Below, piece after piece: positions 10,943 through 17,319 of a DNA stretch of 64,000 nucleotides; the first letter of the stretch is position 1; every line of letters starts with the position of its first letter. The stretch is taken from the NCBI RefSeq assembly GCF_004349105.1, contig NZ_SMLB01000005.1, positions 62,001 to 126,000 of the forward strand, given 5' to 3'. The notes beneath the pieces are model-generated. The model had not been told where the DNA came from. It was given only the letters and a program-made list of their open reading frames with translations, and did no database searches. A program made the translations under genes and the position numbers. This stretch comes from Jiangella aurantiaca (GTDB lineage Bacteria; Actinomycetota; Actinomycetes; Jiangellales; Jiangellaceae).

Positions 10943-10991
10943 TGATCATGTTCCCTCGCGGTCGCTGACACGCCGCGAGGAAACATGATCA
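10943..10991. repeat. Large intergenic hairpin with GATC-containing arms between divergent genes
   Basis: TGATCATGTTCCCTCGCGG (10943-10961) is mirrored at 10973-10991 with 18 of 19 bases matching and an 11-base loop. It lies between two divergent start sites (10916 and 11018), so it could be an operator seen by both promoters or a member of a dispersed hairpin family (see 22765, 23707, 38395). Confidence 0.7.
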
Positions 10992-11003
10992 TGGGACTGT
11001 CGG

Positions 11004-11009
11004 TAGGTT
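11004..11009 (+). promoter_or_regulatory. -10 box for the oxidoreductase gene
   Basis: TAGGTT stands 8 bases before the ATG at 11018, with no ribosome binding site visible; this supports that start codon over the in-frame ATG at 10985, which lies inside the hairpin. Confidence 0.5.
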
Positions 11010-11017
11010 CCCATGCC

Positions 11018-11902
11018 ATGCGCTTCGGACTGGTCGGCACTGGACACTGGGCCCGGGTGGCCCACGCACCCGCACTAGCGGCGACGGAGGACGTCACGTT
11101 CACCGGCGTCTGGGGCCGCGACCCGGCGCGGACGGCGGCGCTCGCGGACGAGTTCGGCGTGCGGGCGTACGGCTCGTTCGACGAGCTGCTGGCCGACGCC
11201 GACGCCGTCGAGTTCTCCGTGCCCCCGGATGTGCAGGCCGAGTACGCCACGGCGGCGGCCACGGCCGGGAAGCACCTGCTGCTGGAGAAGCCGATCGCGC
11301 TCGACGCCGCCGGCGGTCGCGCGCTCACTGACGCCGCCGCGGCGTCCGGGGTGGCCAGCGTCGTGTTCTTCACCCAGCTCTTCCGGCCCGAGGTGCGCGA
11401 CTGGCTGGCGTCCCGCCGGGCCGCGGCGTCCGAGCACCCGTGGGAGGGCGGGACGGCGCTGACGCTGGGCTCCGTCCAGCGCGAGCACGGCGTCTTCTCC
11501 ACGCCCTGGCGGCTGGAGCGCGACGGCGGGCTCTGGGACCTCGGCCCGCACGCCCTCTCCATCCTGCTGAACGTGCTGGAGCCGGTCGAGACCGTCGCCG
11601 CGCACGAGGACCCGCTGGGCACCGTCCACCTCGTCCTCGGCCACCGCGGCGGCGCGTCCAGCACCGTCACCGTCTCGCAGAACGTTCCGGCGGCGGCCGG
11701 CCTCTCGTATGCGCGCGTGTGGGGCGGTGCCGGCCACGCCGTCCTGCCCGAGCAGCCCACCCCGGTCGTCGACGCGCTCAGCACAGCCATCGCTGAGCTG
11801 ACCGCCGCCGCGCGGCCCGGCGCGCCCGCGCATCCGCACGGGCTCGAGTTCGGCGCACGGGTCCTGGACGTCCTGGTCCGGGCCCAGGACCAGCTCGGCT
11901 GA
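11018..11902 (+). CDS. Gfo/Idh/MocA family NAD(P)-dependent oxidoreductase
   Basis: 294 residues. The N-terminal Rossmann fold shows LVGTGHWA near residues 5-12, the family signature LLLEKPIALD (catalytic Lys region) near 90, and the C-terminal substrate domain contains GGGLWDLGPH-like GGLWDLGPHAL. Length is slightly short for the family (usually 330-380). The family oxidises or reduces sugars, inositols and related compounds; the substrate here is not evident. The gene stands alone, divergent from the acetyltransferase and convergent with the haloperoxidase gene, from which it is separated by a strong hairpin. Confidence 0.85.
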   Translation: MRFGLVGTGHWARVAHAPALAATEDVTFTGVWGRDPARTAALADEFGVRAYGSFDELLADADAVEFSVPPDVQAEYATAAATAGKHLLLEKPIALDAAGGRALTDAAAASGVASVVFFTQLFRPEVRDWLASRRAAASEHPWEGGTALTLGSVQREHGVFSTPWRLERDGGLWDLGPHALSILLNVLEPVETVAAHEDPLGTVHLVLGHRGGASSTVTVSQNVPAAAGLSYARVWGGAGHAVLPEQPTPVVDALSTAIAELTAAARPGAPAHPHGLEFGARVLDVLVRAQDQLG

Positions 11903-11997
11903 GGCGGCCCGGCGCCAGCACCTCGGCCGGTCGGCGACGCATTCGCTCGCCGGCGGAGGCCCGGCTGCCCGGGCATGCGTCTCCGCCTCACAGACGG

Positions 11998-12035
11998 ATC
12001 GTCTGGAGCCGGCCATCAGACCGGCTCCAGACGAT
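11998..12035. terminator. Bidirectional hairpin terminator
   Basis: ATCGTCTGGAGCCGG (11998-12012) and its perfect complement at 12021-12035 with an 8-base loop. It sits between the stops of two convergent genes. No T-tract, as usual in actinomycetes. Confidence 0.75.
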
Positions 12036-12069
12036 GTCGTGTTCGGATCGGCAATTGATGAAGAGTTGA

Positions 12070-14577
12070 TCAGCCGAACGGGACTGGGACTGCGCTGAGT
12101 GTGCTCGTGCCGTTACCCAGCTGGCCATCGTTGGCGCCCCAGGCCCATGCTCTACTGCGGGAATCGAGGCTCAGTCCGTGGTCGAGACCAGCGCCAATGG
12201 CCGCCGCCTCGGTCAGGTTGGTGTCATCAACCTGAACTGGGATTGGGCTGTTCGTGCCGGAACCGTTTCCAAGCTGTCCTCTTGCGTTTTGTCCCCAACC
12301 AAGCAGTGTGCCGTCTGACAAGAGCAAGAGACTGTGCCTGTTGCCAGCAGCGATGCTAGTCCCGTCGCCGCCAACGGCAACGGTTACCGGGACCGAACTA
12401 CTGCTCCCAGACTGGCCGTTGTCGCCGAGCTGCCCGAAGATGTTCTCGCCCCATGCACTGACAGCACCGGTGCTGACGGCCAGGCTGTGTCCGCCTCCTG
12501 CGGCGACAGCGACCACGTCGGATAGCCCGCTCACTTGCACCGGCGTCAGGCGGTTGGTCGTGGTGCCGTCGCCAAGCCGGCCAGAACCGTTGTTGCCCCA
12601 TGCCCAGGCCGTGCCGTCCGCGCGCAGCGCCAGGCTGTGTGCAGCTCCTGCGGCGACAGCGACCACGTCGGATAGCCCGCTCACTTGCACCGGCGTCAGG
12701 CGGTTGGTCGTGGTGCCGTCGCCGAGCTGGCCGGAGCTGTTGTCGCCCCAGGCCCACACCTGGCCGCCGGAGTCCAGCGCCAGACTGTGGCCACCACCGG
12801 CCGCAACGGCAATTATGTCGGAGAGACCACTCACTGGAACTGGCGAGAGGCGGTCGGTGGTGGTTCCGTCGCCGAGCTGACCGTTGCCATTGACGCCGCT
12901 GGCGACGACGGTACCGTCGGGTTGCACGGCGAGGCTGTGTTCGTCGCCACCGTCGATGCGTTCGGATGGTGTTGGGATCGGCTGGATGCAATTCCAGTCG
13001 GGGCAGGTCTGGGTGTAGGTGAGGACGTTGCCGGTGAGCTGGTTGGCCAGCGCGGTGCCGGTGGCGATGCCGTCGTCGGCGTCGAACTGGTAGTGCACGC
13101 CCAGGTAGACGCGGCTGCGGGCGTTCTCCTCGGCGGCCTCGGTGAAGCTGTCGAACACGCGGGTGACGCCCTGCGCGTGCGGGTCGTCGGTGGTCAGCGT
13201 CAGCGGGAACGGGTTGATGAACGTCGTGGCGGCCGCGAACTCGTTGGTGAGCACCTGCGCCCAGGCCGCGCCGAAGGTGGCGTGTCCGGACACCCAGGCC
13301 GGGAAGCACGGCGAGAACGGCACCTCGCTGGCCGGGTTCAGCTCGGCGGTGCGTGACAGCGGCTGCCAGGTCGGGTCCGGGTTGGTGGCGTCGTTGTGGA
13401 TCGCCGTGACCGGTCGCCACAGATCCACGTTGGTGAGGTACTTCTGGTCCCACGCGGCGATACCGGCGTCGCCCAGGCCTAACGAGACCTGCGCGAACAG
13501 CCGGGCCACCCGGATGCCCTGCTGCGACCAGCGGGTGTCGAACTCGTCGGCGTTGCCGGTCAGCTCGGCCGCGGGCTGACCCTGGGCGACGATCTGGGTC
13601 GCCTCCAGCAGCTGCCCCGGCGGCTTGTAGGTGCCGTCGAGGTCGTTGGCCCAGAACCACGCCGCCTCGGTCTGATCCGCCGTGCGGTCACCGTTGAGTT
13701 CGGCATCGTCCGCGCCGAGCGCGCGGACCTCGGCCAGCTGCGCGGCGTACTCCGGACTGGCCAGCAACGCCGCGTAAGAGTCGTGCCCGGCCGGGCCGTC
13801 CTGCCGGAACTGCGAACCCGAGGTCATCGTGAACGGGTCCACGTTCCCCCAGTTCGGGGTGGCCGCCGCGGCCAGGTCCGGGCAGGCCGGGTCCTGCGTG
13901 GGCTCCCACGCCCCCGCCACCCCATCCAATGTGTAGGGCATCGGGTCCTGCGACCCGTCGTCGGCGCGCGCAGTGATCACAGCGTTCGCCACGAACGAGC
14001 CCAGCGCGTACGCCTCCTGCTGGAAGTCCGTCCCGTGCCGGGAGTTGAAGGCGTTCTGGATGAACGCCGCCTCGCTGGGCAGCGCCTCGATCAGGATGTC
14101 CCGGGCGGCGTAGCCGGCGGCCAGGTCCGCGTCCACCGACGTGGTGATGTCGGCGATGACCAGGTACGGTTCCCACCCGCACGCCTCAGCCGCGGGGGTG
14201 CCCGTGGCCAGCTGCCGCAGGTGGGCGAAGAACACCGAGTTCAGCGTGTCGAAGATGCCGATGTTCATCATCGCCGCGGCTCGCGCCAGCCGCGTCGGCG
14301 CCACACCCGTCGTCTCGGCGAACGCCTCGGTCAGCGTCTCGTTCCAGTAGTAGACCGTGCCGGCCTCGGTGGCCTGCGCGGCCTGGAACGGATCCGACGG
14401 ACACGACGTCGCCGTCGTGTTCGCCGCCGCGCGAGGCACTCCACCCGGGACGAGTGATGTCGCCAGCACACCGGCCAACGCCAGCACCACTGCGACCACG
14501 ACGCCCAGGCGCCGACGCGCCCGGGATCTCGACCACGCCGGCGCCATCCGCGCCGGCAGGTGAATCGGAATGGACAT
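12070..14577 (-). CDS. Secreted vanadium-dependent haloperoxidase fused to RCC1-type repeats
   Basis: About 835 residues. A signal peptide (RARRR then VVVAVVLALAGVLATSL, cleavage near AAA-N) leads into an all-alpha haloperoxidase/PAP2 domain with the vanadate-binding blocks QKYLTNVDLWRPVTAIH (about 378-392), FPAWVSGHATF (about 425-435) and SRVYLGVHYQFD (about 487-498). The usual Pro before SGH is Val here. From about residue 540, five to six RCC1 repeats follow (HSLAL...WAWGDNSSGQLGDGT), which should fold as a beta-propeller. The RCC1 half has visibly lower G+C than the enzyme half and contains a 79-bp exact DNA repeat. Start: GGAGG lies about 7 bases before the ATG at 14577, better than the ATG 12 codons upstream. 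Probable role: extracellular halogenation or peroxide chemistry, with the propeller for binding (inference). Confidence 0.87.
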   Translation of the reverse strand: MSIPIHLPARMAPAWSRSRARRRLGVVVAVVLALAGVLATSLVPGGVPRAAANTTATSCPSDPFQAAQATEAGTVYYWNETLTEAFAETTGVAPTRLARAAAMMNIGIFDTLNSVFFAHLRQLATGTPAAEACGWEPYLVIADITTSVDADLAAGYAARDILIEALPSEAAFIQNAFNSRHGTDFQQEAYALGSFVANAVITARADDGSQDPMPYTLDGVAGAWEPTQDPACPDLAAAATPNWGNVDPFTMTSGSQFRQDGPAGHDSYAALLASPEYAAQLAEVRALGADDAELNGDRTADQTEAAWFWANDLDGTYKPPGQLLEATQIVAQGQPAAELTGNADEFDTRWSQQGIRVARLFAQVSLGLGDAGIAAWDQKYLTNVDLWRPVTAIHNDATNPDPTWQPLSRTAELNPASEVPFSPCFPAWVSGHATFGAAWAQVLTNEFAAATTFINPFPLTLTTDDPHAQGVTRVFDSFTEAAEENARSRVYLGVHYQFDADDGIATGTALANQLTGNVLTYTQTCPDWNCIQPIPTPSERIDGGDEHSLAVQPDGTVVASGVNGNGQLGDGTTTDRLSPVPVSGLSDIIAVAAGGGHSLALDSGGQVWAWGDNSSGQLGDGTTTNRLTPVQVSGLSDVVAVAAGAAHSLALRADGTAWAWGNNGSGRLGDGTTTNRLTPVQVSGLSDVVAVAAGGGHSLAVSTGAVSAWGENIFGQLGDNGQSGSSSSVPVTVAVGGDGTSIAAGNRHSLLLLSDGTLLGWGQNARGQLGNGSGTNSPIPVQVDDTNLTEAAAIGAGLDHGLSLDSRSRAWAWGANDGQLGNGTSTLSAVPVPFG
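12495..12723 (-). repeat. 79-bp exact direct repeat inside the RCC1 region
   Basis: Positions 12495-12573 and 12645-12723 are identical base for base, 150 bases apart, equal to one 50-residue RCC1 unit. Silent positions also match, so the duplication or gene conversion is recent. Confidence 0.85.
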
Positions 14578-14919
14578 GACAACGCCTCCGATCAGGAGCA
14601 GCGATGTCCGCACCGGGCACCCGGCATACCGGCCGATCGGCCATCAACCCGCCCGCACGGACACTGACGCTGGCGATCCTGTGCAGGGGCGCGGCCTGCC
14701 GAGAATGATCTCGGCCAACCCCGGCCGACGCCGTCTGATTTCGGTCGCCGTCGGCGAAGGTCGGCCTCTTCCGGGCGACCCCGGCCACGACCGGCTGGCC
14801 GCCCCGCTACCGTCCGCGTGTAGCGCCGACGGGCGCGGCGTGACACACCCGCGGTGTGCGGCGATTCGCTGCCGACTCAGTGCACCACTCTGCGGGTGCA
14901 TAAAGGGTCATAAGGGGCA
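14578..14919. other. Intergenic stretch upstream of the haloperoxidase gene
   Basis: No convincing gene. It holds the ribosome binding site of the haloperoxidase gene, a perfect 12-base palindrome GGCCGATCGGCC at 14631-14642 that could be an operator, and a small dyad TGCACC/GGTGCA at 14881-14900. Confidence 0.5.
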
Positions 14920-14949
14920 TTTACAACCGTGGACGTGTCTGCGTATGAT
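14920..14949 (+). promoter_or_regulatory. Candidate promoter upstream of the truncated regulator
   Basis: TTTACA (14920-14925), an 18-base spacer and TATGAT (14944-14949) in a locally A+T-rich patch. The resulting leader to the ATG at 15157 would be about 200 bases, which is long. Confidence 0.4.
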
Positions 14950-15156
14950 CTTGAACCGTGGGCTTGTGCGGGACGTATACCGAGGCCACAGCCACGATCA
15001 GCGTCACATTGGGGGGATGTGCGGATGCCGGGAAATGACCTCGTGGAACCGCCGACTGCGACATGAATTGCGAGTGAGCAGTCCGTTTCGTTCCGCTGCG
15101 GTCGCCCGCCGCGGGCGCATCGATGACGGCGGCCTGGCTCAGGGGGGCGGACACCG

Positions 15157-16044
15157 ATGTACGAACGCCAGCACGGCGACGAGCTGGACTTCACCCGACC
15201 GGATCCCGCTCTTGCGCGAACCGGCGCGGATTTCATCGTCTACCTGAGACGGCTGAAGCTGTGGGCGGGCGATCCGTCCTTCCGCGAGCTCCAGCGACGA
15301 TCCGGGGTTCCGGCGAGCACGCTGTCCGACGCGCTCAATCGGAAGCTCGCGAGACTCCCGCGCCTGGATGTCATCCGCGCGTTCGTGAGCGCATGTGGTG
15401 TCGGCCTCGCCGACCAAGCCCGGTGGGTCGCCACGTGGCGCGCTCTTCGCCTCGAGGAAGCCGCCACCACCGAGTCGGCCTCGGCACGTCCGTCCACGAC
15501 GGCTTTCCACCGAGATCCGCGCGTCGTCGACCGCGACCACGCCATCGCACGGCTCGACGCCGTGCTCCGCGAACACCGGGCGGGTCGCCGACGGTCGCCG
15601 CTGGTGCTGATCACCGGGACCTCGACGGCCGCCGCCAGCGCGACCGCGCGGTCTTGGATGCGGCGCCAGTCGGCCACGTTCCCCGACGGCCGGCTCTACC
15701 TCGATCTTCGCAGCGCCGCCGGTGGAGCCGGCCACGCCGGATTGTCGATGCTCCTGCGTCAACTCGGCGTGCTCGAGGACGAGATCCCGGTGACACCGGA
15801 CGCCCGGGCCGGTCTCTACCGGTCGATCAGCCGGGAACGAACGTTCCTGGTGTTACTGGACAACGCCACCGACGCCGACCACCTCCGGCCGCTCCTGCCA
15901 GAGGGGCCGGCCTGCTACACCCTGATCACCAGCACCGCACCGCTGTTCACGCTCGCCTCCAGGCACGACGCCGTGCAGCTGTCCGTAGGTCGTGGCGACC
16001 AGGTCCGCGGCGACCGCGCGAGCACGGATCCCAGATCTGCATGA
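15157..16044 (+). CDS. Truncated HTH/NB-ARC-type regulator with a degenerate P-loop
   Basis: 295 residues. The N-terminal 90 residues form an XRE-like helix-turn-helix region (FRELQRRSGVPASTLSDALNRK). Residues 120-290 align by pattern with the NB-ARC ATPase of large actinobacterial transcriptional regulators: VLITGTS... in place of the Walker A strand, FPDGRLYLDLR, LLRQLGVLEDEIP, RTFLVLLDNATDADHLRPLLPEG and LITSTAPL. The Walker A consensus GxxGxGKT is gone (GTSTAAASATARS instead) and the helical and TPR repeats that normally follow are missing; the last 15 residues look like a frameshifted tail. RBS AGGGGGG precedes the ATG. It may still bind DNA but is unlikely to bind ATP normally; it may be a decaying gene. 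Confidence 0.7.
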   Translation: MYERQHGDELDFTRPDPALARTGADFIVYLRRLKLWAGDPSFRELQRRSGVPASTLSDALNRKLARLPRLDVIRAFVSACGVGLADQARWVATWRALRLEEAATTESASARPSTTAFHRDPRVVDRDHAIARLDAVLREHRAGRRRSPLVLITGTSTAAASATARSWMRRQSATFPDGRLYLDLRSAAGGAGHAGLSMLLRQLGVLEDEIPVTPDARAGLYRSISRERTFLVLLDNATDADHLRPLLPEGPACYTLITSTAPLFTLASRHDAVQLSVGRGDQVRGDRASTDPRSA

Positions 16045-16356
16045 ACTTGCCGTGCACGCATTGCGCCCGCACGTGCTCTGTACGTTGCCGTGCGACACAA
16101 CGGACAAATGTCGCCGCGATGAACGCCGTGAGCGCGGCTCACTCGTATCGTGTCGCTCAAGCGAACTCATGTCGACAAGTGGCTCCGAAATCCGGGCTAA
16201 ACCTTGACATGATCGTCATTTCCCGGAAAGAGTGCACGTCGTACCAAGTCTCCGACAGGAGTAGGGGGAGCATCTGTCGCTTCGGCTCGGTCTCCACAAC
16301 TGAATCCTGCGCACAGATCTCCTCATCATCCGCAGCATCCGCAGAGAGGAGCGCAC
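16045..16356. other. Lower-G+C intergenic stretch upstream of the secreted protein
   Basis: No gene seen. Contains TTGACA at 16204-16209 inside a small dyad (TGACATGATCGTCA) but no clear -10 partner, and the GAGAGGAG ribosome binding site for the next gene. It may include the lost 3' part of the NB-ARC-type gene, too decayed to read. Confidence 0.4.
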
Positions 16357-17319
16357 ATGCGCTACCGCAAGATCGCCCTGACGGCGGCAGCCGCCGGCCT
16401 CATGGCCGTTGGTTTCGCCGCGCCGTCCCAGGCCGCGCTGACGACGTTCTGCGACGGTGTCGCAGCCGACGTCACGGTGCCGGGGGACCTGGTGGTCGCC
16501 GCCAACAAGTCGTGCGAGCTGACCAACGTCACCATCAACGGCAACGTGACCGTTCGTGCCGACGCGAACCTGCTGCTCGACGGCTCCACCGTCAACGGTA
16601 ACGTCCGCGTCCTGGCGAACGGCTTCGGTGACCTCGTCGGCACGTCGGTCACCGGCACAACCGTCCTGAACGCGGCGTATGGCGTCTACACCGAGGAGAG
16701 CGCCCTCGGCAACAACGTCACCTCGACCGACTCCGGGTTCTTCTACTCGGTCGGCTCGAACCACGCTCGCAGCGTCACCTCCACGAACGGTGAGACCTTC
16801 ATCGAGAGTGGCTGGGTCAGCCGGAACCTCGCGACCACCGGCGACACCCTGACCGACGTGTACGACACCGTCATCGAGGGCACCTACTCGGTAACCGGTG
16901 CCGAGCAGGGCGCGATCCTGTGCCTGTCGGAGGTCGACGGCGATGCCACGTTCAGCGGCACTCCTGGGGACATGCAGGCGATTCTCCAGATCGGTGCCTC
17001 CGCACCGCTGACCGGCTGCGGCTTCAACGTGTTCGGCGGCGACCTGAGCGTCACCGACAACATGGCTGAGTCGTACGTGTCGGACAACGTGGTTCGCGGC
17101 GACCTCACCTGCTCGGGTAACACCCCGGCCACGGTTGCCGAGAACAACCGCGTCCGCGGCGAGGACAACTGCGAGTCCGCGATGGCCGCGGCGTCGGCTC
17201 GGTCGTCGATGCGCAGCGACGTGGCGGCGGACCGCAAGGCGGAGGTCAAGGCCGACGCCGAGGCTCGTTCCGAGGTCGCGGAGGACGCGGCCGAGGCGGC
17301 CGGCCCCGCGTTCAGCTGA
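16357..17319 (+). CDS. Secreted beta-helix-like protein of unknown function
   Basis: 320 residues. A clear Sec signal peptide (RYRKIALTAAAAGLMAVGFAAPSQA, cut near residue 27) is followed by about 230 residues rich in N, T, V and G with recurring short beta-strand units of the type VTINGNVTVRADANLLLDG and STVNGNVRVLANG, as in parallel beta-helix or polymer-forming proteins. Five cysteines are present (for example FCDGV, KSCELT, LTGCGF, LTCSGN, EDNCES). The last 50 residues are Ala/Glu/Arg-rich and probably helical. RBS GAGAGGAG precedes the ATG. Not recognised as a named family. A role as an envelope or matrix protein is only an inference. A very strong hairpin follows. Confidence 0.75.
   Translation: MRYRKIALTAAAAGLMAVGFAAPSQAALTTFCDGVAADVTVPGDLVVAANKSCELTNVTINGNVTVRADANLLLDGSTVNGNVRVLANGFGDLVGTSVTGTTVLNAAYGVYTEESALGNNVTSTDSGFFYSVGSNHARSVTSTNGETFIESGWVSRNLATTGDTLTDVYDTVIEGTYSVTGAEQGAILCLSEVDGDATFSGTPGDMQAILQIGASAPLTGCGFNVFGGDLSVTDNMAESYVSDNVVRGDLTCSGNTPATVAENNRVRGEDNCESAMAAASARSSMRSDVAADRKAEVKADAEARSEVAEDAAEAAGPAFS

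Follow-up and report, generated by a model that had tools for sequence, protein, structure and literature searches.

On the minus strand of a 64,000-nucleotide stretch of Jiangella aurantiaca DNA (contig NZ_SMLB01000005.1, positions 62,001 to 126,000; hereafter the window, numbered from its first letter), we analyzed a gene for a putatively exported vanadium haloperoxidase (VHPO) that continues in frame into an RCC1-type β-propeller. The gene reads as one open frame of 835 amino acids, and ATG 14577 is its likely start because a GGAGG lies seven bases ahead of it (found by eye); the gene limits given in the original prediction, made from the letters of the window, therefore agree with the likely gene. 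All residue numbers follow this ATG. The features of the gene are as follows.

12070..14577, minus strand: fusion gene, 835 amino acids, from ATG 14577 to the stop codon at 12070
12070..14613, minus strand: the open reading frame including a longer, mechanically assigned start, GTG 14613
14422..14577, minus strand: N-terminal export-like signal, residues 1-52 (boundary set by eye)
12973..14421, minus strand: VHPO domain of the PAP2 superfamily, residues about 53-535 (Pfam, match to a solved sequence, alignment, fold)
13411..13443, minus strand: vanadate block K379-x8-R388-P389 (alignment, chloroperoxidase match)
13282..13290, minus strand: vanadate block S430-G431-H432 (alignment)
13093..13116, minus strand: vanadate block S488-R489-x5-H495 (alignment, chloroperoxidase match)
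12967..12996, minus strand: junction, residues 528-537 (stop codon of relatives, composition change point)
12073..12966, minus strand: RCC1-type β-propeller domain with six repeats, residues 538-835 (Pfam, alignment, model, fold)
12479..12928, minus strand: three 150-nucleotide tandem units in the RCC1 half (repeat comparison)
11998..12035, minus strand: 17-pair hairpin, 34 bases 3' of the stop codon, terminator-like and lacking a T run

Residues 1-52 comprise a basic n-region, a hydrophobic stretch, and an AAA ahead of N53 (by eye), from which we infer that the fusion protein is exported. No NCBIfam family was assigned to the protein at E 0.01. On the 3' side of the gene, the terminator scan called none and the hairpin lacks a T run; the stretch that holds the hairpin scores z -5.76, and so strong a hairpin near the stop codon fits a transcription unit that takes in the RCC1 part.

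Vanadium haloperoxidase half

The enzyme half is recognized by Pfam as PAP2 (7.4e-7, 29.4 bits, cut-off 27.2) and is matched by a solved vanadium chloroperoxidase sequence at 1.5e-19. All eight solved sequences that match it at E 0.01 are VHPOs, and NapH-type chains gave no sequence match at that threshold. In a 20-sequence alignment, comprising the window protein, 17 of the 21 named VHPO loci, and two plasmid records, K379, R388, S430, G431, H432, R489, and H495 are invariant (20/20) and align with the vanadate ligands of the Curvularia chloroperoxidase, H495 falling on the axial one. Two further residues, D312 and F425, are likewise invariant in all 20 sequences and align with chloroperoxidase D292 and F397. 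As judged from these positions, the catalytic set of the enzyme half looks complete. The spacing of the first vanadate block is two residues longer than in the Curvularia chloroperoxidase (K-x8-R-P in 20/20 versus K-x6-R-P).

A full-length model, computed with an alignment of 17 relatives of the enzyme half, has pLDDT values of 47-97 by ten-residue block over residues 61-530. It is most similar to the bacterial iodoperoxidase 4usz (Z 35.3, 387 residues, 2.7 Å), followed by the Curvularia chloroperoxidase (Z about 28), NapH1/NapH3 (Z about 25), and, at a distance, acid phosphatases (Z about 14). The enzyme half thus combines the two features by which VHPOs are recognized, (i) the ligand set and (ii) the helical-bundle fold, and the haloperoxidase domain with vanadate-binding blocks foreseen by the original prediction is borne out by the PAP2 assignment, the chloroperoxidase match, and the invariant ligands. 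By homology and model, it would act as a vanadate- and peroxide-dependent halide oxidizer. In an enzyme tree of 39 rows, which left out one locus (L049) with <300 aligned residues as well as duplicates, the window sequence groups with two Solirubrobacter proteins (support 99/97). Solirubrobacter, the source of the nearest relatives found, belongs according to our kinship labels to a different class of the same phylum.

RCC1 propeller half

Six stretches of the C-terminal half are recognized by Pfam RCC1 (PF00415; E=4.2e-61, 203.8 bits against a cut-off of 21.7), and the half also matches WD40_RLD (2.1e-70). With one open frame running through both domains, the proposed in-frame RCC1 fusion stands. 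Modeled alone with 13 relatives (pLDDT 93.4, pTM 0.91), the RCC1 half forms 24 strands, enough for six four-stranded blades, and superimposes on UVR8 residues 71-375 over 294 residues at 1.2 Å (Z 43). Structure prediction, which had been proposed as a check, accordingly placed the enzyme half on the VHPO fold and the RCC1 half on UVR8. The repeat signature and four-stranded blades of the RCC1 superfamily, common to BLIP-II, UVR8, and RCC1, are both present. We know of no case in which BLIP-II, UVR8, or RCC1 is fused to an oxidant-making enzyme. The Ran binding and exchange activity of RCC1 itself would not be expected of an exported bacterial protein.

The propellers of UVR8, BLIP-II, and RCC1 have seven blades. 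With six repeats and 24 modeled strands, the window domain departs from the closed seven-blade ring of the UVR8/BLIP-II type, and we did not file it there; on the model, it looks one blade short. No remnant of a seventh blade was seen 3' of the stop codon in three frames of 11898-12073. Because the fit on UVR8 is so close, the model suggests that the predicted ring keeps a seven-blade curvature and leaves a gap, although a bias toward this shape may come from aligned relatives that have seven repeats. Lacking a seventh blade, the ring may be open at a slot or may close with six blades.

Of the three 150-nucleotide tandem units, the one at 12479-12628 served as the reference copy; the other two share 87% and 68% identity with it, and the units look like a local duplication of blades. 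Their likeness is in line with the continuing blade amplification in propellers described in an excerpt of Pereira and Lupas (PMC9218822). All five RCC1 matches of the whole genome fall in the fusion gene. The view that RCC1 repeats are best known from eukaryotic proteins and some bacterial surface proteins needs correction, as they are not mainly eukaryotic: the same excerpt, from a survey of highly repetitive propellers, describes the RCC1/BLIP-II group as mostly bacterial, and 41 of the 62 loci returned by our peptide patterns (see below) are bacterial RCC1 genes.

Junction and separate origin of the two halves

The G+C content at third codon positions (GC3) changes along the gene, being 0.925 over residues 1-545 (0.941 expected) and 0.731 over residues 546-835 (0.935 expected), where the expectation is computed from the amino acids encoded and from codon usage in six genes of the window. 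A change in composition is best placed at residue 529, where the log-likelihood gain is 31.5 (highest value among 500 shuffles, 9.6); the eight best positions fall at 526-535. The GC3 switch coincides with the domain border, and the frame is open across the join. As the RCC1 half differs in composition, a separate origin of the two halves, as originally proposed, is supported.

The stop codon of the nearest relatives lies at the position of residue 536, seven codons past the change point. The two Solirubrobacter stand-alone enzymes (L023 and L025; L numbers are our labels for loci, G numbers for genomes) read -CEDWTCTTPIS and -CASWSCATAIP directly before their stop codons, whereas the window protein reads -CPDWNCIQPIPTPSER at the same place and then runs on into RCC1. 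Two more relatives (L138 and L139) end at the same place, and the C-terminal ends of L136, L137, and L155 are the same as those of L023 or L025. The Solirubrobacter proteins, L138, and L139 share with the window enzyme the vanadate blocks and a two-cysteine C-terminal tail (60% identity between L023 and the window enzyme over 418 aligned columns) but stop at the join without an RCC1 part. Since the nearest relatives stop where the propeller starts, the propeller is, on this sequence comparison, an addition at the natural C-terminal end of the enzyme. The join is real and probably recent.

Searches for a second fusion

Six peptide patterns, drawn from the window protein alone so that a distant fusion could escape them, returned 62 loci (21 VHPO and 41 RCC1) from 84,980 species, and none has both halves. 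The enzyme half matched only its own genome among 22 of the family (E 1e-10; 21 others without a match) and 15 of 393 genomes of the class including its own (E 1e-20), where no fusion besides that of the window was found. Searches with the whole protein gave any match in 59 of 396 genomes of the phylum (E 1e-15) and in 63 of 399 genomes of the class of G738 (E 1e-30), with no second fusion in either set. In the class, phylum, and G738-class searches, scoring was limited to two or three first-look candidates per genome, so that a distant fusion could escape these as well; rows without a locus were judged by query range only in the last two, and the four genome sets overlap (their sum, 1,210, includes repeats). 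Other phyla were covered by the peptide patterns and by searches of plasmids (of 154 matching records, none covered 80% of the query), phages (19 records matched, 0 covering 80%), and viral contigs (two loci, RCC1 only).

At the level of loci, none of 37 VHPO loci (a count that includes the duplicates L007/L029 and L023/L024) carries an RCC1 part, and in none does a separate RCC1 gene adjoin the stand-alone VHPO within flanks of about 1.5 kb (class-level loci) or up to 6 kb (named loci). Both halves were likewise found together in 0 of 45 further loci (L111-L155; 13 VHPO, 32 RCC1). Enzyme matches ran past query residue 535 in L029 and in five rows (G946, G1094, G1022 twice, and G868), the five with an internal stop. 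As candidate fusions, L029, L136, L137, L138, L139, and L155 were rejected, their proteins stopping at the enzyme end with no RCC1 where they were read further; RCC1 rows that start before residue 535 (G476, G1034, G938, G948, and G839) hold no enzyme. As a separate observation, in two genomes of the G738 class, G946 (full match at C45 66585-68063, L136; partial match at 80307-80885) and G1094, the full VHPO match is accompanied by a partial one at a distance of about 12 kb.

Full-text literature searches that paired haloperoxidase or chloroperoxidase with RCC1, beta-propeller, or accessory domain found no description of the fusion. Two co-mentions were set aside: chloroperoxidase and RCC1 concern unrelated genes in the part of PMC10710014 that names them, and haloperoxidase and beta-propeller are unrelated in the corresponding part of PMC12115072. 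The suspicion that no such fusion had been described agrees with these searches, and the database search for the same domain pair, suggested along with it, found the pair only in the window among the loci and genomes covered. As far as searched, the VHPO-RCC1 pair is a single-lineage chimera.

VHPOs with other added modules

The Curvularia inaequalis chloroperoxidase (1idq) and the iodoperoxidase (4cit, 4usz) share fold and vanadate ligands with the window protein, but unlike it they have no propeller. Among the 37 VHPO loci, two have >100 residues after the enzyme. One, from Lentzea terrae (L041, 5785-8013), resembles the window protein in joining a VHPO-related enzyme to a C-terminal propeller-type module: 279 residues follow the enzyme and include four FG-GAP_3 stretches, and FG-GAP is classed among the propellers in an excerpt of PMC9218822. 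It differs in that the module is FG-GAP rather than RCC1 and the enzyme sits on another branch of the tree; its PAP2 score (24.4) is below the cut-off of 27.2. The other, from Micromonospora (L032, 5797-7566), has a 111-residue C-terminal tail that received no Pfam name.

Plasmid genes of Rhizobium and Nostoc also join a VHPO-related domain (tblastn, 32-41% identity) to other modules, the PAP2 and VCPO scores being below cut-off in all three genes. In the Rhizobium conjugative plasmid (L133, 3760-11505), the VHPO-like stretch (32% identity) lies within a 2,581-residue Ig-like protein. The records of the Nostoc genes name spondin- and CARDB-domain proteins, with modules unlike that of the window protein; CARDB at the N end is confirmed by Pfam, whereas spondin is a label given in the record and had no match at E 0.01. 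Both halves of the fusion are thus of known kinds. Added modules on VHPOs are also of a known kind, and RCC1 as such a module is new as far as we searched.

Genomic setting

The fusion gene lies within a block that the congeners lack.

11898..16088, no strand: inserted block of about 4.19 kb; the corresponding site lacks it in 11 of 11 congeners
15157..16044, plus strand: HTH_31-type regulator with an AfsR-like part (HTH_31 just below the Pfam cut-off)

Each of the 11 other genomes of the genus matches the DNA to the left and right of the block and lacks the block itself; the two flanking matches are separated by 4 to 12 bases in nine congeners and by 61 and 64 in the two most distant. The insertion breaks the last codons of a Gfo/Idh-type gene (10985-11902), whose severed end, with the old stop codon, can still be read at 16089-16122, on the right-hand side of the insertion (by eye). 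Inspection of the borders by eye revealed neither a clear target-site duplication nor a clear terminal repeat. No integrase is among the two genes recognized in the insertion, the scan having left out its other mechanical frames. The simplest account is that the block was acquired from outside, with the fusion formed before or after the transfer; a loss in 11 genomes that left an intact gene end is unlikely.

The regulator is apparently truncated near the right border of the insertion and has a GC3 of 0.818. Similar HTH stretches stand beside the VHPO gene in 4 of 16 class-level loci (L009, L015, L016, and L018), in two orientations, with no match at E 1e-3 in the other loci compared. Beyond the insertion, a secreted-looking protein (16357-17319) resembles a beta-solenoid family weakly (14.7 bits; cut-off 27) and has no Pfam family above cut-off; 11 of 11 congeners retain the DNA that encodes it.

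Interpretation

The reading that we favor, and to which we give about an even chance, is that of a recent and real chimera in which an exported VHPO makes an oxidant and the propeller serves as a binding or localizing module. The enzyme half would use vanadate, hydrogen peroxide, and halide to produce hypohalous acid outside the cell, a step proposed because of its likeness to chloroperoxidase and iodoperoxidase. The propeller, as an independent domain, would bind a protein or glycan and so hold the oxidant source near a surface or a partner. We envisage a binder, by analogy with BLIP-II and UVR8, because solved RCC1-type domains sit in complexes with partner proteins, namely BLIP-II/beta-lactamase, UVR8/COP1 and RUP2, and RPGR/PDE6D (structure titles); BLIP-II is a secreted binder in the excerpt of PMC9218822. 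The C-terminal FG-GAP repeats of the Lentzea terrae enzyme also speak for this reading.

Several observations weigh on the other side. The C terminus has no anchor or sorting signal (by eye), and 12 of the 13 aligned bacterial relatives of the propeller show another repeat where the window protein ends. The RCC1 half has low confidence in the full-length model, because the alignment behind that model held no RCC1 relatives, and so the model gives no arrangement of the domains. According to the part of a commentary (PMC8407465) that bears on it, free hypohalous acid is characteristic of macroalgal and cyanobacterial VHPOs, whereas those of Streptomyces and other bacteria act site-specifically. 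No relative of the fusion was found, and selection for the joined protein, propeller binding, and halogenation are all putative.

The strongest competitor, which we rate as possible but clearly less probable, takes the join to be a recent accident: the enzyme would work by itself, and the propeller would be a neutral passenger, perhaps already losing blades. It earns this standing because the fusion is a singleton in what was searched, because the propeller has one repeat fewer than 12 of its 13 aligned relatives, and because its codon use is unlike that of neighboring genes; the absence of the RCC1 part from the 37 VHPO loci, and of joined halves from the 45 further ones, points the same way. 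An idle propeller, however, sits poorly with an RCC1 frame that is intact and repeats that model with high confidence, with a strong hairpin close behind the stop codon, and with three 150-nucleotide units that resemble a local blade duplication.

A bolder extension of the favored reading, which we consider doubtful, is that secreted VHPOs of Actinomycetota form a chassis for interchangeable C-terminal propellers, such as RCC1 in the window protein and FG-GAP in that of Lentzea, and that each propeller directs the oxidant to a different target. The window protein would then be a newborn case, its foreign-codon propeller one blade short and its open slot taking a strand or blade from a partner.

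That the halogenation is selective, with the propeller presenting a protein or peptide substrate or the enzyme being otherwise specific, so that free acid is not the point, seems unlikely to us. We keep it in view because the commentary excerpt ascribes site-specific action to VHPOs of Streptomyces and other bacteria, and RCC1 folds do bind proteins (structure titles). Yet the enzyme half matches chloroperoxidase and iodoperoxidase by sequence and no NapH-type chain at E 0.01, NapH ranks below both by fold, and neither of the two genes recognized in the insertion is a biosynthetic partner.

It is more improbable still that the enzyme half is a PAP2-type phosphatase, although the superfamily is common to both activities, PAP2 is the sole Pfam name on this half, and apo-chloroperoxidase is able to dephosphorylate (title of 3bb0); the exclusively VHPO matches among solved sequences, and Z scores of 25-35 for the nearest VHPOs versus about 14 for acid phosphatases, argue against it. 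An assembly or sequencing artefact, suggested by a draft genome of 102 contigs, internal repeats, and the lack of a second example, is scarcely credible given that the join lies inside a contig extending past the 64-kb window, 11 congeners are collinear with the window DNA on either side of the insertion, the frame is open with the composition switch at the domain border, and the repeat copies differ from one another.

VHPOs with other added modules exist, and therefore an appended module is not a new idea. What the window provides is a cleanly documented domain fusion, in which the relatives stop where the module starts and the insertion site is empty in 11 of 11 congeners. Should the propeller direct the enzyme, the protein would show a route by which an oxidant producer is given a target and would offer a natural handle for immobilized halogenation; if the propeller is a passenger, it would show how such fusions begin.

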